From Candidatus Nitrosotenuis uzonensis (GTDB lineage: Archaea > Thermoproteota > Nitrososphaeria > Nitrososphaerales > Nitrosopumilaceae): a DNA stretch of 64,000 nt. Under the pieces are notes generated by a model. It searched no databases, was not told where the DNA came from, and saw only the letters and a list, made by a program, of their open reading frames with translations. Of this stretch, positions 7,804-27,298 are shown one piece after another. The stretch's first letter is position 1; every line of letters starts with the position of its first letter. Both the position numbers and the translations under genes were made by a program. Location: positions 372,001 to 436,000 of the forward strand of contig NZ_CBTY010000009.1 in assembly GCF_000723185.1 (NCBI RefSeq), read 5' to 3'.

Positions 7804-7829
7804 GTTATTGATTTTTTGTTCGAAAATCA

Positions 7830-7857
7830 GTATATAAGACTAATGGACAATTTGTCC
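7830..7857 (-). promoter_or_regulatory. S-layer promoter with adjacent inverted repeat
   Basis: The TATA box CTTATATAC (minus strand, 7830-7838) is centred about 30 nt before the ATG at 7803, giving a leader of only a few bases. Directly upstream of the TATA/BRE region is the inverted repeat GGACAA-T-TTGTCC (7845-7857), with 6-bp arms. The core promoter assignment is solid by position. A role for the repeat as an operator is inference. Confidence 0.65.
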
Positions 7858-7961
7858 ACAATCAGCCACTTTTTTCTATTAATTTCAAGCCCAGAGCAAT
7901 CCTGATCGAGTTTTTTGATCGCATCTTGTAATTTTTACATTTCATACGGTGAAAAGTATGC

Positions 7962-8972
7962 TTAAAGTCTTTTTCTAATGAAACCTATGGAATCTACAGG
8001 GGATGGATCAGTGTCGTTTAACACTGCATAATAAATTGAAGCAAAGTCCAACTCGTAGATTAGACATATGAGCTTGGTCAATATGCTTCCGTGCGTTGAA
8101 ATTACTTCTTTATAGTCAATATCGTTTTTCGTAAAATATTCCTTGACTATCTTCCATCTTTCCTTGGTTTTGATATAGTCGTCCTGTCCCTGCAGAAGGA
8201 TCGGTTTTACAACAGAGGGTTTTTCCCAGGATACTATGCCATTATGCGATGCTTCTATTACATCCTCAATTATTGCGTGTGATTTTGCATTTTCTTGCAG
8301 CGAGCTTTTGAATCGCACTGCGGCTGCCTGTAGGCCCCACGGATAATAGATTAATGGTATGCCAGATAGCCAGTTTGCAACATCCAATGATGGATTGGTC
8401 TGTGAGAGATTTGACGAGTTTATCTTATTAGCAAGCTTTTCTAATGATGCGATTGATTCTAAAATATCAGATTTTTTTATCGGGATTACAGAATTTAGTG
8501 TTCCAAGAATAGAATACACATAGTTAACAAGTGATGAGCGCGGAGAATGAATATTTTCAACCAACCGATGCTCTATTTTTTTTCTTGCGCAGAATTTTTC
8601 CATTTGTCCGCCGGAACAGAACGCAACAAGTTTGCATTTTTGCTTGCTTGCGGATTTGAGGATGTTGAGAGTTTCTACTGTATTTCCAGAAACGCTCACT
8701 GTGATGACTAGTGTGTTTGCATCCACGGTTTTTGGCAAAAGATATCCCTTGACAAGACTTACATGGATATTTGTCTTTGAGAGAATGGCAGAAAACAGAT
8801 CCCCTATAGCTCCTGAGCCCCCCATTCCTGCAAACACTATATGGTCTATGTCCTTGTAGTCAATAGGCTGATGTTTTGTATAGTAGAAACTGTGTGCAAT
8901 CTGCGGCCACCTGTCATACACAGTATGCATTCCATGCTTGTCGACTTTTTTTAGAGTAGATATGCTAAGCAA
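7962..8972 (-). CDS. Bifunctional phosphoglucose/phosphomannose isomerase
   Basis: Interconverts glucose-6-P or mannose-6-P with fructose-6-P, feeding sugar nucleotides for surface glycans. It is a SIS-domain protein with GMGGSGAIGD near residue 49, VSVSGNTVETLN (phosphosugar loop) near residue 90, SSLQENAKSHA and EASHNGIV motifs, matching archaeal PGI/PMI of about 330 residues. A longer frame from 9095 would overlap the upstream gene by 77 bases. The TTG at 8970-8972 is preferred because a TATA element (8993-9003) is centred 26 nt before it and the resulting N-terminus (LSISTLKKVDKHGM) fits the family. A later ATG at 8930 is the alternative. Confidence 0.85.
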   Translation of the reverse strand: MLSISTLKKVDKHGMHTVYDRWPQIAHSFYYTKHQPIDYKDIDHIVFAGMGGSGAIGDLFSAILSKTNIHVSLVKGYLLPKTVDANTLVITVSVSGNTVETLNILKSASKQKCKLVAFCSGGQMEKFCARKKIEHRLVENIHSPRSSLVNYVYSILGTLNSVIPIKKSDILESIASLEKLANKINSSNLSQTNPSLDVANWLSGIPLIYYPWGLQAAAVRFKSSLQENAKSHAIIEDVIEASHNGIVSWEKPSVVKPILLQGQDDYIKTKERWKIVKEYFTKNDIDYKEVISTHGSILTKLICLIYELDFASIYYAVLNDTDPSPVDSIGFIRKRL

Positions 8973-8992
8973 TTGAGTGTTGTTTTGATTGG

Positions 8993-9003
8993 TTATAATA
9001 TAT
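8993..9003 (-). promoter_or_regulatory. TATA box for the PGI/PMI gene
   Basis: Minus-strand ATATATTATAA lies inside the 3' end (HesA/MoeB-like gene side) and is centred at 8998, exactly 26 nt before the TTG at 8972. It implies a leaderless transcript and supports the short N-terminus. Confidence 0.55.
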
Positions 9004-9018
9004 GGATTTAGAATGCAA

Positions 9019-10353
9019 TCAGCTTGGAACGACTTGTTTTTTGCCAAGCAGTTTTTTGTATAGCGATACTGCGTCAGTTTCGTCTTTTGGTCCAACTATG
9101 ACAGCAGAGCCACGTTTCATAAAGCTCACGGACAGCTCGTTTGTCCTCATTGAGAGTCCTAGTTCGCCCTGATTTTCCACGCGGAATTGCAGATCTTTTG
9201 CAATGTTTGTTATTTGTTCAGTGTCAATTTCGAATTTTTGAGTTGGCGTAATAGAGAAAGTCCTTTTGCCCCTGTTTCTTCCGCACAATTCTTCTATTAT
9301 GAGTTCCTGCTTTGGTGCAGATTCCAGTTTGCCAGTACCACACACGTAGCATTCTTCTGCTCTGAACGTCCTTGTAAAGTCAAATGCCATGGTCTCAATG
9401 TCTATGTGAAGTATTTTATCAGAGAGGCTTGGCTTTTTGCCAAGGATTATCTTGACTGCCTCTGCCACTTCTATTCCGCCCACTATGGAAAGAATTGATG
9501 GGTGCACTCCCTCTATGCTGCAAGTAGGCATCGAGTCCTCATCAAGTGCAGGAAACATGCACGAATAGCACGCACTTTGTTTTGGAAGAATCGTAAATGC
9601 CTGGCCCGACACCCCTACGGCAGCACCAGTGACAAACGGAATTTTTTTCTCAACGCATGCCTTGTTCAGAGCATATCTTGCGTTCACGCTATCTAGTGCA
9701 TCTATTACAACATCGCATCCTTCAACTGCATCAAGTGCTGTGTAATCGTTTATCGATATTGGAAGCGATTCGATTTCCACATCAGGGTTTAGCTTTTTGA
9801 GCTTTCTTGCTGCAACCTCTACTTTGACCTGCCCAACATCGTCCTCGTCATACATTGTCTGCCTGTGAAGGTTTGATAATTCTATTACGTCCCTATCAAT
9901 TATTCTTAATTTTCCAATTCCCATGGCAGCAAGTCTTGTAGTTATTGGATTGCCAAGGCCGCCGACTCCGACAACGCACACCTTTGCCGCTCGTAGCTTT
10001 TGCTGTCCCTGGTATCCAATCTCCTCTAGCATTATCTGGCGCGAATACCGGTCTATTTCCTTGCTGGAAAGATCAGAACCTCCTGCAACAGCAGGCAGTA
10101 TGTACACCTCATCGCCGTCCTTTAGTTCGGTGTTGATTCCTCCAGAAAAGCGCGAGTTCTTTCCGTTGATGTAAATATTGACAAGTGAACGTGGAGTTCC
10201 GTCATCGTTTAGAACGCGCCTCTTAAAGTCATCACCCATTGTTTCAGAAACTTTGTTGAAAGATTCCAATAGAGAGTTTGCGCTGATTTGGAGTTTTTTT
10301 TCTCCGCCTCCCTTGTTTAGTACTGATGGAATTGTAAATGTAATATCTGCCAT
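9019..10353 (-). CDS. MoaD/ThiS-like ubiquitin-fold domain fused to ThiF/MoeB E1-like enzyme
   Basis: Activates a small sulfur-carrier or ubiquitin-like protein by C-terminal adenylation. Residues 1 to about 93 form a beta-grasp domain ending AVAGG, the expected di-glycine. Residues from about 97 hold the E1-like fold: SRQIMLEEIG, the nucleotide loop GVGGLGNP, DRDVIELSNLHRQ, CxxC zinc ligands (CYSC and CYVC) and the PTCSIEGVHPS cysteine. About 95 extra residues follow. The carrier's GG is joined directly to the enzyme, so either it acts in cis or the domain is regulatory. It begins right at the threonine synthase stop, so the two are co-transcribed; a link to thiamine, molybdopterin or SAMP chemistry cannot be decided from sequence. 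Confidence 0.85.
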   Translation of the reverse strand: MADITFTIPSVLNKGGGEKKLQISANSLLESFNKVSETMGDDFKRRVLNDDGTPRSLVNIYINGKNSRFSGGINTELKDGDEVYILPAVAGGSDLSSKEIDRYSRQIMLEEIGYQGQQKLRAAKVCVVGVGGLGNPITTRLAAMGIGKLRIIDRDVIELSNLHRQTMYDEDDVGQVKVEVAARKLKKLNPDVEIESLPISINDYTALDAVEGCDVVIDALDSVNARYALNKACVEKKIPFVTGAAVGVSGQAFTILPKQSACYSCMFPALDEDSMPTCSIEGVHPSILSIVGGIEVAEAVKIILGKKPSLSDKILHIDIETMAFDFTRTFRAEECYVCGTGKLESAPKQELIIEELCGRNRGKRTFSITPTQKFEIDTEQITNIAKDLQFRVENQGELGLSMRTNELSVSFMKRGSAVIVGPKDETDAVSLYKKLLGKKQVVPS

Positions 10354-11568
10354 TTATTGCACCACTGCTGAAATCTTTGCCACATCTGCTTTCATTGTTT
10401 GTGGCTTTTGCAAAACTTCCATTATTGATTCTGTAGCCTTCAGACCGTTCCCTGTCACATAGCAGACTGTAGTATCATTCTTGTCTATTTTACCATCCTC
10501 GACCATCTTTTTGAGTACTGCTACTGAGACGCCGCCTGCCGGTTCGGTGAACACACCTTCGGTCTTGGCAAGGAGCAAAATGGCATCAAGTATTTCCTTG
10601 TTGTTTGACTCTTCTGCGTACCCGTTGTATTGTTTTAGTCTTTTTAGCACATATCTTCCGTCTCCCGGATCGCCTATTGCAAGACTTTTTGCTATAGTAT
10701 CGGGATTCTCAACAGGTATGACCTCGGTATCGCCTCTTTTGAATGCATCAACTACAGGCGCGCATCCATGAGGTTGAGCTGCTATCATGCGCATTCTTGA
10801 AACGTCATTTAGTAATGAAACGGTTTGGAGCTCCTCAAATCCCTTGCAGATTGCATTTAGCATTGCACCGCTTCCCACAGGAACTATTAGCTGGTCAGGT
10901 ACTTGCCAGCCAAGCTGCTCTGCTACTTCGTATGCAAGTGTCTTTGAGCCTTCTACATAGTACGACCTCATGTTGATGTTTACAATTCCTATTCCTTTGC
11001 TGTCTCCAATCTGGGCAGCAATTCTGTTTGCATCATCATATGTTCCATCAACTGCTATGAATTTGGAACCGTATGCAAGAGCTTGTGCAATCTTTGCATG
11101 CTCTATATCGCTTGGGGCAAACACGTAACATGGGAATCCCCCCTTTGCTGCATGCGCCGCCGTAGCAGACGCAAGGTTTCCAGTCGATGCGCATCCCACT
11201 GCAGAAAGGCCAAACTCTTTTGCCTTTGACACAGCAACGCCAGCTGGTCTGTCCTTAAATGAGAATGTGGGGTTTACTGAATCGTTTTTTATATACAAGT
11301 TGTTCAGGCCAAGCTCCTTGCCAAGCTTTTCTGCCCGGATTAATGGCGTCATGCCAGCGTGAATGCTAACAATGTTTGATTTTTGCTGTATTGGTAATAA
11401 TTCAAAATATCTCCAGTATGTGTGCTCACGTCCATCAAAGGCATTCTTTGATACTGGAGAGAAATCATATTTTACATCCAGCGGCCCAAAGCACTCATCA
11501 CAGATGTATTTGAATGTGGACTCGTACTCTTTTTTGCATTCCCTGCACTGGAGTGATATTTTTGACAT
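10354..11568 (-). CDS. thrC: Threonine synthase
   Basis: PLP enzyme converting O-phosphohomoserine to threonine in the cytoplasm. The N-terminal zinc-ribbon-like CREC..CDEC (residues 8-27) is typical of the long form. The PLP lysine sits in PTFSFKDRPAG near residue 105, with GCASTGNLASA and a glycine-rich phosphate loop PVGSGAMLN. Its 404 residues are normal for the family. The stop directly abuts the start of the ubiquitin-like/E1 fusion, making a two-gene operon. Confidence 0.93.
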   Translation of the reverse strand: MSKISLQCRECKKEYESTFKYICDECFGPLDVKYDFSPVSKNAFDGREHTYWRYFELLPIQQKSNIVSIHAGMTPLIRAEKLGKELGLNNLYIKNDSVNPTFSFKDRPAGVAVSKAKEFGLSAVGCASTGNLASATAAHAAKGGFPCYVFAPSDIEHAKIAQALAYGSKFIAVDGTYDDANRIAAQIGDSKGIGIVNINMRSYYVEGSKTLAYEVAEQLGWQVPDQLIVPVGSGAMLNAICKGFEELQTVSLLNDVSRMRMIAAQPHGCAPVVDAFKRGDTEVIPVENPDTIAKSLAIGDPGDGRYVLKRLKQYNGYAEESNNKEILDAILLLAKTEGVFTEPAGGVSVAVLKKMVEDGKIDKNDTTVCYVTGNGLKATESIMEVLQKPQTMKADVAKISAVVQ

Positions 11569-11727
11569 AAAATGATCCGTGCCTGTTATCTAGTTAAAAT
11601 GTCCTAATATCAAGTTTAGTGACACTTAACTTTAAGTCCAATAAATTTAATAATAGTTAACTGCGCTTATTGCACCAGCAATAGTTGATTACAAGACTTT
11701 TTATGTATTTTAGGAAGAGAAACTAAG

Positions 11728-12195
11728 ATGAAGGCAAAAATAATTGGAATCGCAATCGTAGTCGCAGTAGTTGTATCCGTAATATCTGCCATATTATTTG
11801 CCGGACCTGTCGAAGTCAGCACCGAACCCGAGGATGAATTTGCGCACTGGAATAGGTCTGAACATTTCGGAGTGAACAAATATGAATACAAGATAGGCGA
11901 GAACATATTTTTCATAGCAAGGGATCTGAGCCCATATGATGTGGGAAGTATCGCGTTTGTCATGCCAAACGGCACTACCAAGTACATAGTGATTCCATTT
12001 GATGGCAGTATCAAGTCTGGCTTTAATCAATACTTCAAGCCATCGCTGTCAAAGGCAAGAGGTATCTGCAGCACTGCAGATCTGATAGGAGAATGGTCTG
12101 TGGTATTCCAAGGAACCAGATATGAGCCATTAAAGTTCAAAATCATAAACGAGACCATACCGTCAGAAATTGCAATATTTGAGCGCGTATGCTAG
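11728..12195 (+). CDS. Small exported membrane-anchored protein
   Basis: A 155-residue protein with an uncleaved or cleaved N-terminal hydrophobic helix ([22 protein letters not shown]) followed by a soluble beta-rich domain containing [30 protein letters not shown]. It is not recognised beyond being the kind of single-pass protein common in thaumarchaea. A TATA-like TTTTATGTA (11699-11707) is about 26 nt before the ATG, so the mRNA is probably leaderless. Its TAG stop overlaps the TAG stop of the convergent hisI by two bases. Confidence 0.7.
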
Positions 12196-12518
12196 TCTAG
12201 TTTGTTATGAAAGCAGACCTTTTCTCCCGTATGACATGCAGGTCCTGTCGGCTCTACCAGATAAATTATAGCATCAGAGTCGCAATCAACTAGGATTTGC
12301 CTTACCTTTTGCACGTTGCCTGATTCCTCGCCTTTCATCCAGAGTTTGTTTCTTGACCTGCTCCAGAACCACGAGTTTCCAGTCTTTTTTGTAAGCTCTA
12401 GTGACTCTTTGTTTGCATATGCAAGCGTGAGCACATCCTTTGTGTTGACATCCTGCACTATTACGGGAACCAGTCCGTCGCCTTTTGCAAAATCAATGTC
12501 AGATAGTGATTTTTTCAT
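12192..12518 (-). CDS. hisI: Phosphoribosyl-AMP cyclohydrolase
   Basis: Opens the adenine ring of PR-AMP, third step of histidine synthesis. It is a 108-residue single-domain HisI with [18 protein letters not shown], the metal-binding DCDSD and the zinc cysteines in PACHTG and KVCF. There is no fused HisE (PR-ATP pyrophosphatase) domain. It has its own TATA (CTATATTTG, 12540-12548) 26 nt before the ATG, so it is transcribed apart from the main his operon, from which it is separated by toxin-antitoxin genes. Confidence 0.93.
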
Positions 12519-12571
12519 ATTCGATATTTTCTACATTCTCAAATATAGATGTTGAAATAAAATATTGTGTA

Positions 12572-12967
12572 TTATACAACATCCATTTCTTCGATCTTTG
12601 TAAAATCACGATCAAAGGTAGCGATTTGACGTATTTTTTGATTTTTCATTGTTGCAATTGTTATACAGTCGACAAAGCTTAGTTGCAGACGCTGTTCTGA
12701 AAATATTTGCCAAGCACTCTCAAAAACATTTTTTTCAGTATATATCATATTGCAGGATTGACGAACCAGTTTACCTATGCGTGTTGCTTCTTTTAATGAT
12801 TTTAATTTAAGAAAGCTTACCGTGACAACCTCGCTGAATATGTAATCAGTCACATAAAGTGCAGAATCCTGTACCGCGAGTATTTTTGCAGTATTTAACG
12901 CACTAGAATGATTTTGGTCGCTAGTATTAAAGTATGCCAATATGAAACTTGTATCAAGAAACACCAT
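12572..12967 (-). CDS. vapC: PIN-domain toxin, VapC type
   Basis: Predicted Mg-dependent RNase toxin. The PIN fold carries acidic residues in MVFLDTSFIL (first Asp), FSEVV (Glu), LSFVDCITIATM (Asp) and TFDRDF (Asp). Start at ATG 12965-12967 is chosen because it gives the canonical VapC N-terminus; a longer frame only adds MMIFC. It overlaps the antitoxin gene by 14 nt, typical of vapBC. The 131-residue length is normal and all catalytic acids are present, so it looks intact. Confidence 0.87.
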   Translation of the reverse strand: MVFLDTSFILAYFNTSDQNHSSALNTAKILAVQDSALYVTDYIFSEVVTVSFLKLKSLKEATRIGKLVRQSCNMIYTEKNVFESAWQIFSEQRLQLSFVDCITIATMKNQKIRQIATFDRDFTKIEEMDVV

Positions 12968-13202
12968 ACAAAATATCATCAATCTGTACGCTTAGCTTTT
13001 CTGTTCCTTTACCCCAATCAAACGGTTTGATTTTTGAGAATGTTTTTCCGCCCTTTTTTGGATGTGCTTTGGTTCTTATCCAGACTTGCATTGCTTCAGT
13101 TAGAGCCTCGCCCATCTTCATTTTGTGTTCCGCTGCTTTGGCCTTGAACAGACCAAGTATTTCATCATCCACATCTCGGACAGTCACTAAATTTTTCTTC
13201 AC
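12954..13202 (-). CDS. vapB: VapB-type antitoxin
   Basis: An 82-residue antitoxin with an N-terminal ribbon-helix-helix-like DNA-binding segment (KNLVTVRDVDDEILGLFKAKAAEHKMKMGEALTEAM) and a C-terminal toxin-wrapping tail. The start is GTG at 13200-13202; the TATA (TTATATAAT, 13222-13230) lies about 24 nt upstream, so it is leaderless. Two tandem TGTATTACA palindromes between the TATA box and the start codon would let VapB/VapBC repress its own promoter. Confidence 0.82.
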   Translation of the reverse strand: MKKNLVTVRDVDDEILGLFKAKAAEHKMKMGEALTEAMQVWIRTKAHPKKGGKTFSKIKPFDWGKGTEKLSVQIDDILYGVS

Positions 13203-13204
13203 AA

Positions 13205-13222
13205 TGTATTACATGTATTACA
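13205..13222. promoter_or_regulatory. Tandem TGTATTACA operator of vapBC
   Basis: Two perfect head-to-tail copies of TGTATTACA (13205-13213, 13214-13222). Each is itself a palindrome (TGTA-T-TACA). They lie between the TATA box and the GTG start of vapB, an ideal place for autorepression. A third copy is at 13619-13627 before the decayed second antitoxin. Confidence 0.6.
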
Positions 13223-13241
13223 TTATATAAAAAGATGATAG

Positions 13242-13272
13242 TTCCGGTTCAAAATTCTCAGTCACACCGGAA
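13242..13272. repeat. Inverted repeat upstream of vapBC
   Basis: TTCCGGT (13242-13248) and ACCGGAA (13266-13272) are perfect 7-bp inverted arms 17 nt apart, between vapB and the toxin-antitoxin relic. It could be a weak terminator for the upstream unit or a remnant end; nothing else supports either reading. Confidence 0.3.
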
Positions 13273-13314
13273 ACGCATTTTTCAAGGATATGTATAATTA
13301 ATGTTCAATTGTTC

Positions 13315-13614
13315 TTTCATCGTTACTTTACAAATATTACATTGTAGGAATTATTCAGCTTAGTCATTTTACTGCAACGCTTGCATTAAGTACAATCTCT
13401 TCAGACGTAGCGATCCTGTTTTACAGAGTGAGCTGGGCATCAAACCCCACGTTTGGTCTTTTTTAATTGCATCCATGGTTTGTGCTGCATATCTTCTTTT
13501 TTCCTCCACGATTTTTTGCTCAATCATTTTCTGGATATATTCTTCCCAGTTTATTTCCAATTTGTCCATTTGCTTCTTTATCTTTGGAGTTATCCTAATA
13601 TTCAGATTGCTCAT
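13315..13614 (-). pseudogene. Decayed second VapBC-like toxin-antitoxin pair
   Basis: The ATG at 13614 opens a VapB-like antitoxin (MSNLNIRITPKIKKQMDKLEINWEEYIQKMIEQKI) whose last 30 residues are out of register. A one-base shift in the A-tract near 13462 restores KKRPNVGFDAQL, and a second shift restores VKQDRYV-stop, the usual VapB tail. The toxin start then reads EEIVLNASVAVK, the hallmark VapC N-terminus. However, its first catalytic Asp is Asn, the next Trp codon is a stop (TGA), and the rest of the PIN domain is missing. The current 81-residue frame ends at 13369. This is a dead module. Confidence 0.7.
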
Positions 13615-13618
13615 AGCA

Positions 13619-13627
13619 TGTATTACA
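13619..13627. promoter_or_regulatory. TGTATTACA operator copy before dead antitoxin
   Basis: Same 9-bp palindrome as the tandem pair at vapB, five bases upstream of the relic antitoxin ATG. It suggests that both modules were once controlled by related antitoxins. Confidence 0.45.
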
Positions 13628-13692
13628 CTCTGTCGCTCACAAAGTATTGCAAATATGTAATAGAGCACAATAAATATGCAACAAAATTAGGA

Positions 13693-14496
13693 TTACAATC
13701 GAACTTGGACATCATTTTTCTTTAGGAATTCTTTGACCCTGTCCACAGAATGTCTCTCATAGTGGAAAATAGAGGCAGCTAGAGCAGCATCAACGTCGGT
13801 TTTCTTGAACACATCAAGCATGTGCGAGGGCTCACCACATCCGCCAGATGCTACCACGGGAATTTTTACCGCACCCACTATTGCCTTTGTGAGAACTAGA
13901 TCATACCCGTCCTTGGTGCCGTCCCTGTCTATGCTGGTTAGAAGTATCTCACCTGCCCCAAGGTCCTGCACCTTTTTTGCCCATTCTATGGCATCGATTC
14001 CGGTTTCTTTTTTGCCACCGTAAATGAAAAGCTCAAACCAGAATTTTTTATCCCCTTCAGAGAAGATGTTTTTGCCCTTTGATACATCATAGTTTCTTTT
14101 TGCATCAATTGCGACCACGACGCACTGGCGCCCAAACAAGTTCATCAGATCTGTTATAATCTGCGGATTTTTTACAGCGCCCGTGTTTATTGCAACCTTG
14201 TCTGCGCCGCAAAGCAGTATGTCACGGGCATGCTGCAGTGTCTTGACTCCGCCACCCACTGTAAACGGGATATCAATTACCTGTGCTACTTTTGATACCA
14301 GAGATCGGATGGTCTCGCGCTGCTCCTGCGAGGCAGTGATATCAAGAAAGACAAGCTCGTCGGCTCCCTCGTTGCTGTATTTTTGTGCCAAAAGCACAGG
14401 ATCTCCTGCATCCTTGATTGATTCAAAGTGAAGCCCCTTTACCACCCGGCCGTTTGCCACATCAAGGCATGGAATGACTCTTTTTGTAAGGCTCAT
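13693..14496 (-). CDS. hisF: Imidazole glycerol phosphate synthase, cyclase subunit
   Basis: Uses ammonia from HisH to turn PRFAR into IGP and AICAR. It is a (beta/alpha)8 barrel of 267 residues: [17 protein letters not shown] at the N-terminus, [11 protein letters not shown] and ASGGCGEP phosphate loops, and catalytic Asp in LDV and [12 protein letters not shown]. The ATG at 14494-14496 is the start because it overlaps the hisA stop (ATGA); a longer in-frame extension is spurious. Confidence 0.96.
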
Positions 14497-15206
14497 GCTG
14501 TCTTTGCCTCTTTGATTGATATTTTTCCATCGTATAATGCCTTGCCCAAAATTACCCCGTACGCACCGCATTCCCTAACATGTGGAATGTCTGCTGGTCC
14601 TGATATTCCGCCGCTTGCAATTACGTTAATTCCAGATATTTTGCATGCTTTTTGCAGGTTTTCAGTATCAGGACCTTCCAGTGTTCCGTCTCTTGATATG
14701 TTGGTTATAAGAAATTCTGTGAATCCTTTTTTTGCAAAATCATCTAGGGCGTCAAACAGGTCAATGTCAGTTCTCTGCTGCCAGCCATGGGTAACTACCA
14801 TGCCGTTGTTGTGATCCACCGATATCACTATTCTGTCCTTGCCGAATTTGTTTGATATTTCCATTAATAATTCGGGATTTTTGAGCGCAATTGTGCCTAC
14901 TACGATTCTTTGTGATATTTGCAAGGATTCTTCGATGATTTTTCTGTCCCGTAGTCCTCCTGCCACTTGTACCGGAATTAAAACTGATTGTGTGATTTTT
15001 TTTATCATACCATGGTTGGAGCCTCTCTGCAAGGTGGCATCAAGATCCACCAAGTGCAGCATATCAGCTCCCTGCTTTTCCCACTTTAGTGCCATCTGTA
15101 CCGGATCGTTCCCGTATACAGTCTTTTCATTTGGATTTCCTTTGAGCAGCCTTACAACCTGGCCTTCCATGATATCTATTGCCGGAATTATCTTCACTTT
15201 TTGCAC
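14493..15206 (-). CDS. hisA: ProFAR isomerase
   Basis: Amadori isomerase of histidine synthesis, 237 residues. The barrel begins VKIIPAIDIMEGQVVRL with the catalytic Asp, and has VAGGLRDRK, TNISRDGTLEGPD and ASGGISGPADI phosphate loops. It starts with GTG (15204-15206), overlapping the hisH end by 13 bases and hisF by 4. Confidence 0.95.
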   Translation of the reverse strand: MQKVKIIPAIDIMEGQVVRLLKGNPNEKTVYGNDPVQMALKWEKQGADMLHLVDLDATLQRGSNHGMIKKITQSVLIPVQVAGGLRDRKIIEESLQISQRIVVGTIALKNPELLMEISNKFGKDRIVISVDHNNGMVVTHGWQQRTDIDLFDALDDFAKKGFTEFLITNISRDGTLEGPDTENLQKACKISGINVIASGGISGPADIPHVRECGAYGVILGKALYDGKISIKEAKTA

Positions 15207-15796
15207 ACTCTGAGAAAATTTTCTATCATGGTAGAGCCTACCTTGCCAGATTTTTCTGGGTGGAACTGCGTTCCGAATAGATTTTTCTTGCTGACGACTG
15301 CAGGAACTTCGATCCCATAGTCTGCATCTGCCACTATGATATCATCATCTTTTGGCTTTACCCTGTACGAGTGCACAAAATACACCCACGACATGTCCGG
15401 CACTCCGTCCAAGAGCGGGTTTTGCTTTTTTATCTTCAGGCTGTTCCATCCCATGTGAGGTATTTTGAACTTGTCTGGAAGCATGACCACCTCGCCTTCC
15501 ATGACTGCAAGGCCGCTTTCCTTTCCCTCCTCGCTTTTCTCAAAGAACATCTCCATGCCAAGGCAGATTCCAAGTACCGGCGTGTCCTTCGCATAGTCCT
15601 CAAACTTTGTCCTGGAATATTCCCTGATGCTCCTTATGGCAGGATCAAAGTTTCCCACCCCTGGAAGCAAAATCCCCGAATAGTTGTTTTTGCCATCAAA
15701 GCTTGTTATGACGTCAACCTGTGCGCCTAGCTTTTCAAGCGCAACTTTTAGGCTGAATATGTTTCCTGCACCGTAATCAAATATCGCTACTTGCAT
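15194..15796 (-). CDS. hisH: Imidazole glycerol phosphate synthase, glutaminase subunit
   Basis: Class I glutamine amidotransferase supplying ammonia to HisF. The 200-residue protein has LGICLGMEMF with the nucleophile Cys, oxyanion region PGVGNFD, and the His-Glu pair in GTQFHPEKSG. It overlaps hisA, so the two subunits HisH and HisF flank HisA in one transcript. A 137-bp spacer to hisB is unusual in this otherwise overlapping operon (see the relic there). Confidence 0.95.
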   Translation of the reverse strand: MQVAIFDYGAGNIFSLKVALEKLGAQVDVITSFDGKNNYSGILLPGVGNFDPAIRSIREYSRTKFEDYAKDTPVLGICLGMEMFFEKSEEGKESGLAVMEGEVVMLPDKFKIPHMGWNSLKIKKQNPLLDGVPDMSWVYFVHSYRVKPKDDDIIVADADYGIEVPAVVSKKNLFGTQFHPEKSGKVGSTMIENFLRVCKK

Positions 15797-15844
15797 TGAC
15801 CCAGATCATATCCGTCCAATACTTCATAAAAATATGCCGAGCTC

Positions 15845-15933
15845 AGTGAAAAGACGGCTTGAGGTTTTGCCTTATCTGACATACTCCCGACCGTAAACGG
15901 TTCGGGCTTTCCCGCTCGCATCCGTAACAGATC
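15845..15933 (-). mobile_element. Relic resembling an IS200/IS605 (TnpB) right end
   Basis: The only long gap in the his operon holds, on the minus strand, GCGAGCGGGAAAGCCCG followed by a strong hairpin (arms 15886-15894 and 15897-15906, loop AA, one bulge) and GGGAGTATGTCAG. A hairpin of this kind behind a GGGAAAGCCCG-like segment is what I remember of IS200/IS605 right ends and the 3' part of their omega RNAs. No tnpA or tnpB frame is nearby, so this would be a solo end. The match is from memory and not searched; it could instead be an intercistronic structure. Confidence 0.4.
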
Positions 15934-16521
15934 CTACATTGAGCCTTTTGTGCTCGGTATGCCTCTTTGTTTTTTGTCCGGGCTTGCCGCCATCCTGAAC
16001 GCAACTGCAAGCGACTTTATCGCAGCCTCTATTTTGTGGTGGTCGTTGTCCCCGTATCTTACATTGATGTGAATGCAGCTGTTGATGTTCTGTACAAGCG
16101 AGAAGACAAAGTGCTCAACATCCTCCTTTGACATTCCTTCAATCTGCGCCCTTTTCACCAGGAGTGTTATCTTGTTGTACTGGCGCCTGACCAGATCGAC
16201 TGATGCCTCTGCAAGCGACTCATCCATCGGAACTGACGCATAGCTGAATCTTGTTATCCCCTTTCTGCTTCCAAGTGCCTTGTCAAGGGCTGCACCTATT
16301 GTGATACCTGTGTCCTCTATTAGGTGGTGCAGTATCCTATCGTTTGACTTTGCCTTTACTGTAAGGTCCAGCATTGCGTGCTTGCCGAACGAGCCGATAA
16401 GGTGGTCAAAAAAGTCAATTCCCGTGTTTATTGATGTTCTGCCACTGCCATCCAGATTAACCTGAACGAAAATCGAGGTCTCTTTTGTTTCCCTTTTTAT
16501 TTTTGCAGTGCGTGCGGCCAT
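15934..16521 (-). CDS. hisB: Imidazoleglycerol-phosphate dehydratase
   Basis: Mn-dependent dehydration of IGP to imidazole-acetol phosphate. The 195-residue protein contains the metal-ligand motifs FFDHLIGSFGKHA, HHLIEDTGI, DNDHHKIEA and the C-terminal GIPSTKGSM typical of HisB. It is monofunctional, with no phosphatase domain. It lies 14 bases after the HAD gene, consistent with the HAD protein supplying the missing phosphatase step. Confidence 0.95.
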   Translation of the reverse strand: MAARTAKIKRETKETSIFVQVNLDGSGRTSINTGIDFFDHLIGSFGKHAMLDLTVKAKSNDRILHHLIEDTGITIGAALDKALGSRKGITRFSYASVPMDESLAEASVDLVRRQYNKITLLVKRAQIEGMSKEDVEHFVFSLVQNINSCIHINVRYGDNDHHKIEAAIKSLAVAFRMAASPDKKQRGIPSTKGSM

Positions 16522-16535
16522 CTAGTGTTGTCCGG

Positions 16536-17510
16536 CTATGCCAGATTTAATGCCTTTGGCAGTAAATTGATTGACTCTAAAATGAGTGGGGCGCCCTTGC
16601 CAACAAAGAACTCTTTTTTTGCCCTTGGGTTTTTGTTTGTCCCGTAGATTCCGCAAAATGTCGTCTTTATTCCAAGACGGTTTGCCTGATTTGCCATAAG
16701 AAGGTCCTCCATGGAATCGCCAACATACAGGCAGTGCTTTGAGTCAAGCTTTTTGATTGTAGATAGTAGCGATTCGGGGTTTGGCTTTGCCATGCTGCGC
16801 GGCTCATCCTCAAGAAACATAGAGCTTGCAACATCAAATCTGTCAAGCAGTTCTCCAAGCGAATACCTTACCGATACAAGTCCTCTGCCCGTTACTATGG
16901 CAATTTTCCTGCCAAATTTTTCTCCAAGTGCATCAAGCAGAGTGTCAGTAATAATGACCAGATCATTTTCTATCAGCCCTGGCTGCTCAAACGAGGATTT
17001 TTTCCCAAATATCTTATAGTATAGTTCCGGCCCGTAGAACATCTGGTCAAATATTACATAAAGCGGGTTTGTCGCATGCGGTCCGGGATAGTCAAGTGCT
17101 TCTTTGATATCAGAAACGTCTGCGTTTTGCAAGAGAAGAAATCTTTCGATTGATTCGATTCCGCTCTTGTCCGCATTTTTTATTGCGGCAAGTATGAATT
17201 TTTTTGCATCAATGCCCATCCTTTCCGCAGCCGCAAGGCACAAAATGCACGCGTATGTGACATCTACCTCGTCGTTAAATCCTCCAGAGTCCTTAAAGCC
17301 TCCTATTATTTCCGGAGTTATCTGTATTGACTGGATGCCGGCAAACTTTTCAAGAACATACTGCGTTACCTGGATAATTGCAAGATCATACGATTTTGAG
17401 ACATCGACTAGTACCCCGTCGCAATCAAAGATAATGGCATCTATGGAACCGACCTTGTCCAGCATGTCCTCTTTTACCAGTATTCCGTCGGATTTGTGAA
17501 CATAAGTCAT
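16536..17510 (-). CDS. HAD-family phosphatase, candidate histidinol-phosphatase
   Basis: A 324-residue HAD hydrolase with all four motifs: FDCDGVLVD (nucleophile Asp, about residue 29), VTGRG (Thr), AKPNPES (Lys) and YVGDSMEDLLMA (Asp pair), plus a large cap between motifs I and II. It sits inside the his operon, overlapping hisC by four bases and just before hisB. No other histidinol-phosphate phosphatase is present in the operon, so it is the natural candidate for that step (inference from context). It could alternatively act on another phosphate. Confidence 0.8.
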   Translation of the reverse strand: MTYVHKSDGILVKEDMLDKVGSIDAIIFDCDGVLVDVSKSYDLAIIQVTQYVLEKFAGIQSIQITPEIIGGFKDSGGFNDEVDVTYACILCLAAAERMGIDAKKFILAAIKNADKSGIESIERFLLLQNADVSDIKEALDYPGPHATNPLYVIFDQMFYGPELYYKIFGKKSSFEQPGLIENDLVIITDTLLDALGEKFGRKIAIVTGRGLVSVRYSLGELLDRFDVASSMFLEDEPRSMAKPNPESLLSTIKKLDSKHCLYVGDSMEDLLMANQANRLGIKTTFCGIYGTNKNPRAKKEFFVGKGAPLILESINLLPKALNLA

Positions 17511-22254: not shown

Positions 22255-22326
22255 GGGCTGGTGGCTTAGTGGTATAGCGCTGCATTCGCAATGCAGAAGT
22301 CGAGGGTTCAATTCCCTCCCAGTCCA
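22255..22326 (+). tRNA. tRNA-Ala, anticodon CGC
   Basis: A 72-nt cloverleaf. The acceptor stem GGGCTGG pairs with CCAGTCC and includes the G3-U70 wobble that marks tRNA-Ala. The anticodon stem CTGCA/TGCAG encloses the loop TTCGCAA (anticodon CGC, reading GCG). The T arm is GAGGG-TTCAATT-CCCTC and the discriminator is A. No intron and no encoded CCA. It borders the A+T-rich island downstream; no second copy of its 3' end was seen. Confidence 0.95.
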
Positions 22327-22407
22327 CTAGGTAACTTTTTTGTGTTACAAATGAACTACTGATTTCTAATACTATAAACTTAAAAAATTCAAATACGATG
22401 TACTTAC

Positions 22408-23586
22408 GTGGTTTGGTTTAGATATAAAACGAATGAATTAAGATTCTTCCAGAAAAAATCAACTGTAAAATTCATAAAAAGATTTCAGAAAAACGGCACA
22501 CCAAACATAGAATATTTTGGTGCAGGAATGTATGCAAATTATCTTTATGAGCCTATAAGAAAAACCATACAACTTTGTGAGATATATCCAAACCTAGTTG
22601 AAAATAAAATGACATTAAATCACATAATAACTGATGAAAGTAGATCATTTGAAATTTACAAACAAGCTGGAACCGATAATATTCGGTTAGCAGTTAGATC
22701 AAGTATAGACGATATTGAAGGATTTGTCAAAGCATTAAATGTTGATTATGAAAAGAAAAATGAAAAAATACTTCCAATATCAGATGAAGTAAGCGACATA
22801 ACTAATGAAGAATATTGCTTTTTTGATTTTGAGCTTGTACGACAGTTTAATTTTACAATTTTAGCTAAAAACCAGCAGCCAATAATAGATAAACTGATTC
22901 AGGCTATGACAGCAAACAGAAACTCCGGAATTATGATTCAGTTTGTTTTTACGAAATCTTTGAACTGGAATAAAATTGCAGAAACCACTGCAGAAAACCT
23001 AAGTAGATATTTGAAAGATGCTGAAAAAAAGAAAATAAAGACGTCAATTAATGGGTTCGGTCCTTATCTTATTCCAAGATTAGTTTTGAAAGAATATCCA
23101 AACCATAATGAACTTGCTTCATCGGCATACCAGATAGGTAAAAAAATTGAAAAGATGTATCATTTGAAAGCAAGCTCAACCCCATACACATTAGCGATAA
23201 GAGGAATGATCAGAGGAAAAAGAACAGAAATACAGAATACATTACAAAACATATCATCTGTTTTTGCTTCTTTAGAATTTGTTGGTGATTCTCTTAATTG
23301 CTTCGTTTATGACATTGATTACGATAGGGGAATATCATGGATTGAAAATAATTCTATAATCAGCGATTATTCTATGAGAATTTTAAAGGAAAATTCAGAT
23401 ATGTGGTCAGATATGCGATGGGGCAAGGGACGAGATTTTGTACCATTTTTATGTTTAACAGCAGAGGAATTTCCTGTTTTTGTATCCATGCCAACAGATC
23501 CTACACTTCCATTATCATATAGGCGCAAGACATTAAGAGGATTAAGTCACGATAAGTTTGTTTTTAGATTAGGAATTCCAATTTAA
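22408..23586 (+). CDS. Probable N-terminal half of a conjugation-type ATPase
   Basis: A 392-residue protein from GTG 22408, A+T-rich and Lys/Ile/Asn-rich, with no transmembrane helix or Walker motif. The overall layout (alpha/beta core, FTILAKNQQPIIDKLIQAM, IMIQFVFTKSLNW, and the ending LTAEEFPVFVSMPTDPTLPLSYRR) resembles the region that precedes the ATPase core in VirB4/HerA-like conjugation proteins, where a similar 'TEEL..L.HFP' block comes before the P-loop. Its neighbour, convergent and 25 bases away, is exactly such an ATPase core lacking this part. The assignment is by pattern only; it may be an unrelated island protein. Confidence 0.5.
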   Translation: MVWFRYKTNELRFFQKKSTVKFIKRFQKNGTPNIEYFGAGMYANYLYEPIRKTIQLCEIYPNLVENKMTLNHIITDESRSFEIYKQAGTDNIRLAVRSSIDDIEGFVKALNVDYEKKNEKILPISDEVSDITNEEYCFFDFELVRQFNFTILAKNQQPIIDKLIQAMTANRNSGIMIQFVFTKSLNWNKIAETTAENLSRYLKDAEKKKIKTSINGFGPYLIPRLVLKEYPNHNELASSAYQIGKKIEKMYHLKASSTPYTLAIRGMIRGKRTEIQNTLQNISSVFASLEFVGDSLNCFVYDIDYDRGISWIENNSIISDYSMRILKENSDMWSDMRWGKGRDFVPFLCLTAEEFPVFVSMPTDPTLPLSYRRKTLRGLSHDKFVFRLGIPI

Positions 23587-23611
23587 AAAATCAGATTAAG
23601 AATGAAATGAA

Positions 23612-25555
23612 TTAATCTACATGAAATATTTTGACTTTGTCATATTCTGATCCTAATTTTGACTTTATTTTTTGTAATCTGTCAGTAGTTTTTGCCCACA
23701 CATGACATTCAGAAAATCCTAACTCTTTCCATTTTATCATATTAAATCGTACTTGTTCCGGATGACTGCTTATTTCAGATCTGGATTCAATTTCTACGGA
23801 TATAGCAATGTTGTTATCATAATCATATGCAACCATATCACTCATTGTTTTATTTTGCCTATTTTGATTTGCTATAACAATAAAAAATCGTTTATTCAAA
23901 TAATACTGATGTGCCGCTTTTGCTACTTGTGCTACATCAGTAGCATAACCAATAACATCAAATGATACTGTAAAGTATGTATTAATTGCTTTTAATGAAA
24001 GTGAGTATTTTCTAACTATTGTACTGCCTTGCTTTCTCAGCATTACTGTATCTATCAATCCTTCTGCTATGAGCGACTGAATTATTGCTTTAGTTTTGTT
24101 TCTATTAGTGCTTTTTGTAGCTTCAACAATTTCAGTAATAATACCATTTTGTTTTTTAAGGAATAGCAGGATTTCCCATTCATCTTTATTTCTATATGGT
24201 GCAGAAAGTTGTTTCATCCATTCTGTTTTTATAGTATGTTTAAAGGAAAAATCAGATCTTATTATGTTATTGTTATGTTGTACTGTCATTTTTTCAATAA
24301 AACAATTTGTTTCTGCATTATCAAGTAATAATTCTGGAGGAGGATCTAGTTTTAGCTGTATAGGCGTACTTTGTTGTTGACCAAAAGGAGGTCTAGTTTT
24401 TGCGGTAAATACGTAATCAGGTTGAGTTGCAATTTGATCTGTTAATTCTATTATAAAATGAGGATCTATAATTTTTGCAATCTTACCTGCATCTAATCCT
24501 GAAACTCGACCAAAAAATTGAGTAGCTGTATTTCCAACTATGATTTCCAAAAGGCTTTCATTAATTTGTGATAAATTTTGATGCGATAAAATTAATCCCA
24601 AATTATAAGATCTGGCCTGAGAGAGCATTGTGGTAATGATTGATAGATCTTTAATTTTTTGGAATTCGTCCAAGGCCAGTAAAACGAGCGAACGTTCTTG
24701 TTGTTTAATTTGGGTTGCTCTATATTGTACCATAAACCAAATTTTTAACACCACAGCCATAATTGCCATACTGTGCACATGTTTTGGAGTTTCGGTGTCA
24801 GAAATGCGAAAAATGGTGATTTGTCCTGGAGAAAGTATTTTTTCAAAATCTATATTTGTGGATGTAACATCAAACCTTTTTTTGAGATAATTATCTGTTG
24901 CAAACATTTCAAATCTGTTTAATAGTGGAGCCCACACATCTTTTGATAGAACGGAAATTGATGATAATGCTTGTCGTATCTCTAAATTAGATAATTTTGT
25001 ATACGGAGTGAGAATTTTATCTAAAGCGTATTTACCATCATTTTGCAGACGTACTATTAAACTATAAAGATCAGTAATTGATGGAGCATTAGTATTTGAA
25101 TAGAGATAAAATAATAAAAGTCGCAAGATTCGTTCCATTTGCACATATGTCTGCGGTTGTGAATAAAATTCCTTGAACATTTCGACAGCATGTCCTACCA
25201 TTCTACTTACTACAGAATCTCTATCTTCTAAATTATGCTTAGGTAATTCTAACAAATTAATTGTAAAATCAGTATGATTCAGATCGAAAAATTGAACTTG
25301 ATCATTATCAAATGATTTTTTACTACATTGACGTAAAAATAAATTAGCATCTTCATCTTTTACATCAATGTAGATTAAAGAACTTGATAGTAACTTACTA
25401 TGATTTGCTTCTTCTAAATGTTTGTACAAATTTCTAATTAGTGAAGTTTTTCCACTTCCTGTACCACCTAATACATATACATGTCTCGATAGATCTTCTG
25501 GTGCAATCCCAATTACATTATCTCTCAACATATTAGAAAGATTGCCAAATTCCAT
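23612..25555 (-). CDS. HerA/VirB4/TraG-type P-loop ATPase with C-terminal HTH and nuclease-like domain
   Basis: A 647-residue DNA-translocase-like ATPase. It begins almost at the core: NVIGIAPEDLSRHVYVLGGTGSGKTS (Walker A near residue 35), Walker B LVLLALDEFQKI (near 290), and sensor-like LILSHQNLSQI. After about residue 450 comes a winged-helix segment (GIITEIVEATKSTNRNKTKAIIQSLIAEGLID). The end carries SDMVAYDYDNNIAISVEIES, which fits a restriction-endonuclease-like fold with a D...ExE pattern, the usual Lys replaced. The ATG at 25555 is preferred over TTG 25558. Typical of integrative or conjugative elements; it may pump or process DNA. Confidence 0.78.
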   Translation of the reverse strand: MEFGNLSNMLRDNVIGIAPEDLSRHVYVLGGTGSGKTSLIRNLYKHLEEANHSKLLSSSLIYIDVKDEDANLFLRQCSKKSFDNDQVQFFDLNHTDFTINLLELPKHNLEDRDSVVSRMVGHAVEMFKEFYSQPQTYVQMERILRLLLFYLYSNTNAPSITDLYSLIVRLQNDGKYALDKILTPYTKLSNLEIRQALSSISVLSKDVWAPLLNRFEMFATDNYLKKRFDVTSTNIDFEKILSPGQITIFRISDTETPKHVHSMAIMAVVLKIWFMVQYRATQIKQQERSLVLLALDEFQKIKDLSIITTMLSQARSYNLGLILSHQNLSQINESLLEIIVGNTATQFFGRVSGLDAGKIAKIIDPHFIIELTDQIATQPDYVFTAKTRPPFGQQQSTPIQLKLDPPPELLLDNAETNCFIEKMTVQHNNNIIRSDFSFKHTIKTEWMKQLSAPYRNKDEWEILLFLKKQNGIITEIVEATKSTNRNKTKAIIQSLIAEGLIDTVMLRKQGSTIVRKYSLSLKAINTYFTVSFDVIGYATDVAQVAKAAHQYYLNKRFFIVIANQNRQNKTMSDMVAYDYDNNIAISVEIESRSEISSHPEQVRFNMIKWKELGFSECHVWAKTTDRLQKIKSKLGSEYDKVKIFHVD

Positions 25556-25702
25556 CAATTACATATAACGTGGCATACAAAAAAATAATTCGGTAATTAA
25601 TAAAGACTATCAGAGATTCTGATAACATTACTATCCTTTTATAATAGAGTATGAAGATCGTCTAGAGAGAAGATCATCTTTTTATGCAATATTACAGATT
25701 TT

Positions 25703-26683
25703 ATGCAAGTGGTATGGAAATTATTTTGGAAACCATTAACAATCATAAAATCAATTAAATCTACAATTACAGGTCATAAAAAACTTAAAAGATATTCTAT
25801 TGGTTTTTTGTTTGCGATATTAGCAGCAATATTAGGCGCCATGGCTGATGTCTTACCAAAGCCAATATTAGAAGGAAATGCTTCTTTCTCAGGATTAAAT
25901 CCAATCGCTATGGTAGCAATTATCTATTTGTTAAATAGTATCATGTTCACTGGATTGCTACCTAAAAAGAATCCAGTAAATGAAGTCGGAATAAGAAACT
26001 TTTTACTATTGATCATTATTGGCGTTACAGAAATCATTGCTACAACCATATTCTATTTAGGTCTGAAGAACACTAGCGCTGTAAATTCGGCAATACTTGG
26101 TAATAGCGATATAATTTTTACATCAATTATAGCTACAATTATTTTTAGAGAAGCATTACAGAGAAAAGAATATTTTTCATATTCAACAATATTATGTGGC
26201 TCAATTATAATTCCAGTATACATTGATTTAGCCGCAAACAACTATCAGATATCACAGTTTGTTTATGGCGATTTTTTGATTATATTTGCAGGTTTGTTTT
26301 ATGGAATTGAAATGAATGTATACAGATATTTGAGCGACAAAATAGATGCTAAACGAATTTTACAGATAATATCATTTGTAGGTGGCATTGTGACTATTTC
26401 ACTAGTCTTTTTATTACAAATTCCATTAGAATTCGAATTTGAATATATGCCAACTATACTAATTTCAGGTATGCTAGGCATAGGCATATCTGTGCTATTC
26501 ATAGTAGTTGCAATCAAAAATATTGGAGCAGTAAGGACGATTCTGATTTTTTCAACTACAACATTGTTTGGAATTATTTTTTCACATATTATTTTAAATG
26601 AAAAAATAATATCTCTTCATCTAATTGCATTTGTAATGGTTTTCATCGGAATAATACTATTAAGAACAAAAATGACGGATTAA
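25703..26683 (+). CDS. DMT-superfamily (EamA) transporter
   Basis: A 326-residue integral membrane protein with about ten hydrophobic helices in two repeats of five (the second starts near GDFLIIFAGLFYGIE), typical of EamA/DMT exporters or metabolite carriers. The N-terminus adds a basic stretch of about 30 residues. Substrate unknown. It is A+T-rich like its island neighbours and divergent from the ATPase gene; a TATA-like element lies in the 144-bp spacer. Confidence 0.82.
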   Translation: MQVVWKLFWKPLTIIKSIKSTITGHKKLKRYSIGFLFAILAAILGAMADVLPKPILEGNASFSGLNPIAMVAIIYLLNSIMFTGLLPKKNPVNEVGIRNFLLLIIIGVTEIIATTIFYLGLKNTSAVNSAILGNSDIIFTSIIATIIFREALQRKEYFSYSTILCGSIIIPVYIDLAANNYQISQFVYGDFLIIFAGLFYGIEMNVYRYLSDKIDAKRILQIISFVGGIVTISLVFLLQIPLEFEFEYMPTILISGMLGIGISVLFIVVAIKNIGAVRTILIFSTTTLFGIIFSHIILNEKIISLHLIAFVMVFIGIILLRTKMTD

Positions 26684-26723
26684 TTATACATCCCAGTTAT
26701 GTAAAAATCATATTCAAAAAATT

Positions 26724-26915
26724 TTAAAAAATGACAATAGTGACTATTAAAAATATTACATTACTGATTAAGATAATAAATTCATCTTTTGTAAATCTTC
26801 TTCCATCATTTAGATGCTTTTCTTTGAAATGTTGTGCAAGATTTTTTGGTGCAACGAGTTCATTACAACATTTCCACTTTTTTGGCGTACTTTCATTTGC
26901 TCTGTTTTGTTTCAA
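26724..26915 (-). CDS. Small zinc-finger protein with C-terminal membrane helix
   Basis: A 63-residue protein: basic N-terminus, a variant finger KCCNELVAPKNLAQHFKEKH (Cys-Cys, His-x4-His) and a C-terminal hydrophobic helix IILISNVIFLIVTIVIF. The only possible start is TTG 26913-26915, immediately after a TATA-rich palindrome that could be its promoter. It may be a membrane-tethered DNA- or protein-binding factor of the island. Unrecognised family. Confidence 0.5.
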   Translation of the reverse strand: MKQNRANESTPKKWKCCNELVAPKNLAQHFKEKHLNDGRRFTKDEFIILISNVIFLIVTIVIF

Positions 26916-26920
26916 TTTTA

Positions 26921-26946
26921 ATATAGTATAATATATTATACTATAT
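26921..26946. repeat. 26-bp perfect palindrome of A/T with two G/C pairs
   Basis: Positions 26921-26946 equal their own reverse complement over all 26 bases (half-site ATATAGTATAATA). It contains TATA elements on both strands and lies between the zinc-finger gene and the AbrB-like microprotein gene, which diverge. It could be a shared promoter/operator or a replication/integration site of the island. Confidence 0.7.
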
Positions 26947-26990
26947 CAATATAGTGTCATATATTATACATATAATTTTTAAAACAAATA

Positions 26991-27128
26991 GTGACTGAAA
27001 CACTGAAATTTGTGGCAATAATTGCTCATCAAGGACAGATGCGTGTTATAGTTATTCCAAAACGATTACATAAAAAATTAACATCGTTTGAAGGTGAACA
27101 AGTCAAGATAACGTTAGAAAAGATATGA
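26991..27128 (+). CDS. AbrB-like microprotein
   Basis: A 45-residue frame from GTG 26991 to TGA 27128. The end RVIVIPKRLHKKLTSFEGEQVKITLEKI has the alternating beta pattern and the (V/I)IPK..H block of swapped-hairpin AbrB/SpoVT DNA-binding proteins, as in many archaeal antitoxin-like regulators. A TATA element (about 26960-26970) lies near 26 nt upstream, so it is leaderless. Its place opposite the 26-bp palindrome suggests it may bind it (inference). Confidence 0.6.
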   Translation: MTETLKFVAIIAHQGQMRVIVIPKRLHKKLTSFEGEQVKITLEKI

Positions 27129-27298
27129 TAAATTTTGAAATAAGATATTGAAGAAACATAATTTATTCCAACAAACTGTTAATTTTGTGGTTAGATGAAG
27201 TAACGCGTGAAATGATGATCACGTCAAACGAGCATTTATTGTTTCCCAACTCTGATAATCAGCACCTAATTAAAACCGTCCCACATTACAAGAACACT

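Follow-up and report, generated by a model that had tools for sequence, protein, structure and literature searches.

Convergent genes of Candidatus Nitrosotenuis uzonensis encode segments of one protein, a probable two-subunit coupling-type ATPase

Analysis of a 64,000-nucleotide stretch of the genome of Candidatus Nitrosotenuis uzonensis (hereafter the window), an ammonia-oxidising archaeon with a genome of 1.64 Mb, identified two convergent genes, P1 and P2, whose products correspond to segments of one protein. The pairing is not a matter of chance, as the same segments in the same order form one ORF in several other genomes. It is fairly likely that P1 and P2 are two subunits of a single T4SS coupling-type ATPase, one that probably partners a VirB4-type module on another contig (C6), and the pair probably serves a conjugation-like machine as its second motor. 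Conjugation ATPases of the VirB4 and VirD4 types are already known, and no description of the recurrent two-subunit form was found in a limited search of the literature.

The gene pair and its relatives

Both ORFs were found to be intact and on opposite strands, separated by a gap of 25 bp (Table 1), at the positions given in the preliminary description, which had regarded them as split halves of one conjugation-type ATPase. That description had also taken the 392-residue P1 for the region ahead of a P-loop, ending in the block expected just before it, with the neighbouring ATPase opening at that point, and the sequences bear this out. No Walker A motif was found in a motif search of P1, which closes with FLCLTAEEFPVFVSMP..., a block found ahead of the P-loop domain in fused relatives; P2 starts approximately 30 residues ahead of GGTGSGKT. 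The second codon of P2 is ATG, and 647 residues is therefore its likely length. No 19-residue stretch with a mean hydropathy above 1.5 was identified in P1 or P2, indicating that both proteins are without a transmembrane anchor.

Table 1. Features of the gene pair and its surroundings, in positions of the window
Feature	Position	Strand	Remarks
tRNA-Ala (CGC)	22255-22327	+	Left edge of AT-rich island
AT-rich island	22330-27180	.	4.8 kb, sharply bounded; GC ~0.25-0.33 vs 0.43-0.47 around; holds P1, P2 and EamA
P1	22408-23586	+	392 aa; VirB4 N-terminal-domain-like front subunit; lacks a P-loop and predicted transmembrane segments
P1 block FLCLTAEEFPVFVSMP	23446-23493	+	Conserved in fused and patescibacterial relatives, immediately ahead of their ATPase domain
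P2	23612-25558	-	648 aa (647 from ATG); ATPase of DNA-translocase type; winged helix and nuclease-like domain at the C-terminal end
P2 PD-(D/E)xK-like domain (~residues 545-648)	23615-23926	-	Probable; conserved residues and alpha-beta-beta-beta-alpha-beta order
P2 winged-helix region (~residues 447-535)	23954-24220	-	MarR-type profile matches (weak); secondary structure predicted for fused relative
P2 Walker B LVLLALDEFQ (residues 291-300)	24659-24688	-	Motif intact
P2 Walker A GGTGSGKT (residues 31-38)	25445-25468	-	Motif intact
EamA-family transporter	25703-26683	+	Same AT-rich island as the pair

P1 was found to be homologous to the N-terminal ~390 aa of fused relatives, in which the P1 segment is followed by the P2 segment within one uninterrupted ORF (1051 aa in genome G016 and 1042 aa in G056). 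Further fusions of ~1030-1050 aa were identified in G213, G210, G201, G244, G306 (two) and G231, so that the fused form is present at no fewer than 9 loci from several genera. Adjacent, co-directional pairs of separate genes were identified in G050 (with a 4-bp overlap), the congeneric genome G076, G128, G082 and G231 (two loci). In G144 the two homologues are on opposite strands with 7.6 kb between them, in G006 they are separated by approximately 400 kb, and broken copies are present in G129, G041 and G029. Among the loci examined, the window alone has the two genes both adjacent and convergent.

Fused versions had been sought in archaea and in Patescibacteria, and they were found in both. 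Patescibacteria carry either two genes (Paceibacteria/Parcubacteria) or a fusion of ~825-830 aa (Peribacteria, Peregrinibacteria, Moranbacteria). In a further archaeal family (f4, at the level of Nitrososphaeraceae, a name that is inferred), an N-subunit of ~340 aa and an ATPase of ~800 aa are accompanied by a gene of ~150 aa whose product has membrane-type segments. Separately, archaeal-type N-subunit and ATPase genes that closely resemble their G050 counterparts were observed on scaffold_120 of a Brocadia sp. WS118 bin (L043), probably a mis-binned Nitrosotenuis-type contig.

It could be argued that the two genes are unrelated neighbours, with P1 an independent protein that resembles the missing front of P2 by chance, given that P1 alone yielded no significant match in Pfam, PHROG or NCBIfam. 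This is scarcely credible, being contradicted by the single-ORF fusions of both segments in several genera and by the fold and profile matches of P1.

Front, motor and tail of the ATPase

The predicted model of P1 (pLDDT 76, pTM 0.78, with the last 20 residues at pLDDT <50) was compared with known structures, and all of its top 8 PDB fold matches were to VirB4/TrwK of R388 or its inner-membrane complex. The best of these had an E-value of 4.8e-4 and a probability of 1.0, with low TM-scores of 0.30-0.39. With P1 itself lacking a P-loop, these matches point to a VirB4-type N-terminal domain placed ahead of an ATPase, and the fold did not prove unrelated to VirB4/TraG N-terminal domains. Comparison of the P1 family with the profile of the patescibacterial N-subunits gave an hhalign probability of 95.9% (E 5e-9). 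Among viruses, the fold of P1 was matched by large proteins of phage G and phage JL.

P2 scored above the Pfam cut-offs for TrwB_AAD_bind, TraG-D_C and T4SS-DNA_transf, and gave no match at E up to 1 to AAA_10 and P-loop_TraG, the profiles of VirB4-type ATPases. A fold search with the predicted model of a fused relative (pLDDT 78, pTM 0.48, the arrangement of its domains being unreliable) returned VirB4 first, over ~860-1057 columns, followed by HerA and TrwB. Among the fold matches listed for this relative, TrwB had the highest target-normalised TM-scores (0.50-0.60). Judged by the Pfam profiles, the motor of P2 is closer to VirD4/TrwB than to VirB4; the front is VirB4-like in fold. The fold matches of P1 and the fused relative, together with the Pfam matches of the motor, thus point to a coupling-type ATPase in which a VirB4-type front and a VirD4-type motor are combined in one molecule, with a winged helix next and then a domain that is probably PD-(D/E)xK-like.

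The assignment of the latter domain is based on its conserved residues and the order of its elements. D574, E589xE591-S592, H599-P600-E601 and K609-W610 are invariant in the tail, and the order alpha-beta-beta-beta-alpha-beta was observed in the predicted model of the fused relative. Profile searches with the tail gave weak winged-helix matches only and no nuclease family, and no relatives of it were present in the viral contigs searched. In an Archaeoglobus MAG (L048 7944-9703), an ATPase of 359 aa adjoins a separate gene of 208 aa that matches the P2-type tail weakly (E 0.004); with the two in separate adjacent genes, the tail may be detachable too.

The resulting architecture resembles several known systems in part. 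VirD4/TrwB/TraG coupling proteins share the P-loop core and the TrwB_AAD_bind and TraG-D_C profiles with P2, and TrwB is among the fold matches of the fused relative. VirD4 begins with transmembrane helices, whereas no N-terminal transmembrane domain precedes the motor here, the front being a separate soluble VirB4-NTD-like protein, and the tail of P2 with its winged helix and nuclease-like domain is a further difference from VirD4/TrwB. VirB4/TrwK of R388 shares the fold of P1 and the order of a front domain followed by an ATPase; it is, however, a single chain, in contrast to the two ORFs on opposite strands here (fused in other species), and the archaeal counterpart of VirB4 (~600-650 aa, P-loop_TraG/AAA_10) is encoded by another gene, elsewhere in the genome of the window. 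The patescibacterial ATPases have a homologous N-subunit and ATPase in split and fused forms, but most of the N-subunits inspected possess a hydrophobic membrane-type N-terminus, unlike P1, and no wHTH/nuclease tail was matched in these ATPases.

History of the split and the surrounding island

When fused and split states were placed on the ATPase tree, three changes were needed, of which the well-supported branches force at least two. The loci of the outgroup are split, and for this reason two genes are plausibly the older state. One clade would then have fused them, G016 would have done so independently, and G231 would have reverted to separate genes. For G050 against L043, dN/dS was ~0.14 for the N-subunit and 0.05 for the ATPase (partial), and for the two G231 loci ~0.2 and 0.14, respectively; both subunits of these split pairs are under purifying selection. 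Given a plausibly older split and this selection on split pairs, the convergent arrangement of P1 and P2 is most simply seen as a local rearrangement of a pair that was already split. The preliminary description had offered inversion or a long-standing two-subunit form as the origin of the split. The second is favoured by the co-directional pairs of sister genomes and distant outgroups. As the two-gene form is common and probably older, inversion of a fused gene appears not to have created the split here.

Exchange of N-subunits between lineages was also considered. A comparison of distances hinted at conflict for G128 and G144, but the N-subunit tree showed no clear conflict there. In topology tests from which G201 was left out, the N-subunit data rejected the grouping of G082 with the clade of the window, and the ATPase data did not reject the N-subunit topology (p 0.245). 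Exchange is thus not established.

The AT-rich island holding the pair is likely to be acquired DNA and ends on its right ahead of a gene for a CBS-domain protein. In G050, the genes for EamA, the N-subunit and the ATPase, with EamA adjoining the pair, occupy a comparable AT-rich block close to this same CBS gene, and in G082 EamA lies <2 kb from the ATPase. More generally, EamA paralogues were observed to recur in the genus beside the ATPase pair or VirB4 (the window, L025 11773-12720, G082:C47 and G076:C21). A mobile element bounded by tRNA genes was considered and rejected, there being no tRNA 3'-end repeat in the window and no pattern of tRNAs at related loci.

That the pair is a decaying remnant of an integrative-conjugative element, with the split and the convergent order recording breakage and neither gene working, appears quite unlikely. 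The island is only 4.8 kb, no integrase was recognised within it and a tRNA-end repeat is lacking, all of which would suit such a remnant, as would the broken copies found in three other genomes. Against it, both ORFs are intact with conserved ATPase motifs, and purifying selection acts on split pairs in other places. The split form is moreover widespread, and the split is therefore not in itself damage.

Two further observations concern the neighbourhood of these genes. At the right edge of the island, a 45-codon ORF (~26992-27126) without a Pfam match resembles AbrB/MazE-type regulators by eye; MazE-type matches were obtained near the fused gene of L131 and, weakly, in L032. In addition, an actin-like (ALP/MreB-type) gene was found upstream of or close to the N-subunit and ATPase genes in L131, L132, L134, L135, L137, L138 and L033 (by Pfam match for L135 and L033, and by sequence likeness for the others). 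Its product is a possible segregation partner, and no such gene was found in the genome of the window.

Proposed function and the VirB4-type module

In the window's own genome a VirB4-type module is present on another contig (G000:C6, ~83-93 kb; L143 ~7000-17000), unlinked to the pair on C9. It comprises a VirB4-type ATPase, a T2SSE-type ATPase, a T2SSF-type protein, and small and polytopic membrane proteins for which VirB3- and VirB6-like labels are suggested by position and topology. Among 151 genomes of the family, VirB4 was identified in 8 of the 13 carrying the ATPase and in 20 of the 138 lacking it (Fisher p 3.7e-4, phylogeny ignored), with p 0.007 when only complete genomes were counted, phylogeny again being ignored. 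The remaining five ATPase-positive genomes had no VirB4 at the threshold used. The ATPase and VirB4 genes are <15 kb apart in G056, G210, G213 and G076, and in G056 and G213 the fused gene has a prepilin peptidase gene nearby. As a sign of delivery to a T4SS, the co-occurrence is only suggestive. Against the coupling-type reading stand the lack of linkage in the window's own genome, the five genomes without VirB4, the low TM-scores and model confidence, the absence of a transmembrane anchor and a defence-type match of P2 to mad8.

A stand-alone DNA-degrading defence module of the HerA-nuclease type, in which a ring ATPase with a nuclease-like tail would act on incoming DNA and P1 would be a sensor or cap, is an unlikely alternative with several points in its favour: the AT-rich island and patchy distribution, the tail itself, and fold matches of the fused relative that include SIR2-HerA and DUF4297-HerA. 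P2 also matches the PADLOC mad8 profile (5e-13) and HerA profiles. The genes adjoining the pair are those for HisG, AdoHcyase, EamA and the CBS protein. Against the defence reading, the HerA profiles cover just ~30-65 residues around the P-loop (PADLOC). The closest motor folds include TrwB, P1 is VirB4-NTD-like and resembles no known sensor, and fused forms lie near VirB4 and prepilin peptidase in several genomes. HerA-nuclease defence systems moreover join a HerA ATPase carrying an N-terminal HAS-barrel to a nuclease or effector partner gene, an arrangement not seen here, where P2 begins at the P-loop.

For a two-subunit coupling ATPase, the following mechanism may be proposed. P2, with its VirD4/TrwB-like core of the FtsK/HerA superfamily, would act as a ring motor that translocates DNA, and P1 would assemble on this motor as a VirB4-NTD-like front module that docks it to a membrane channel. 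The tail, through its winged helix and PD-(D/E)xK-like domain, may bind or process DNA, and the motor would work together with the VirB4-type secretion or conjugation module on the other contig. Thaumarchaeal integrative-conjugative elements, as far as they are described in the available part of the report on them, encode homologues of both VirB4 and VirD4, and no relaxase was found (PMC6563490). They resemble the present case in host group and in their VirB4, VirB3, VirB6, TadC and prepilin peptidase companions, and that part of the report describes no split VirD4, VirB4-like front or nuclease-like tail (PMC6563490). The tail of P2 could possibly replace the missing archaeal relaxase; that it is a DNA-processing nuclease which makes a separate relaxase unnecessary for archaeal conjugation is a rather doubtful extension of the two-subunit reading.

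The front and motor of a secretion-type ATPase can accordingly be separate proteins, which in archaea and Patescibacteria have been joined and parted on more than one occasion. The pair also puts a nuclease-like domain, and with it a candidate, onto a coupling-type ATPase in a group for which, in the available part of the published account, no conjugative relaxase was found (PMC6563490).
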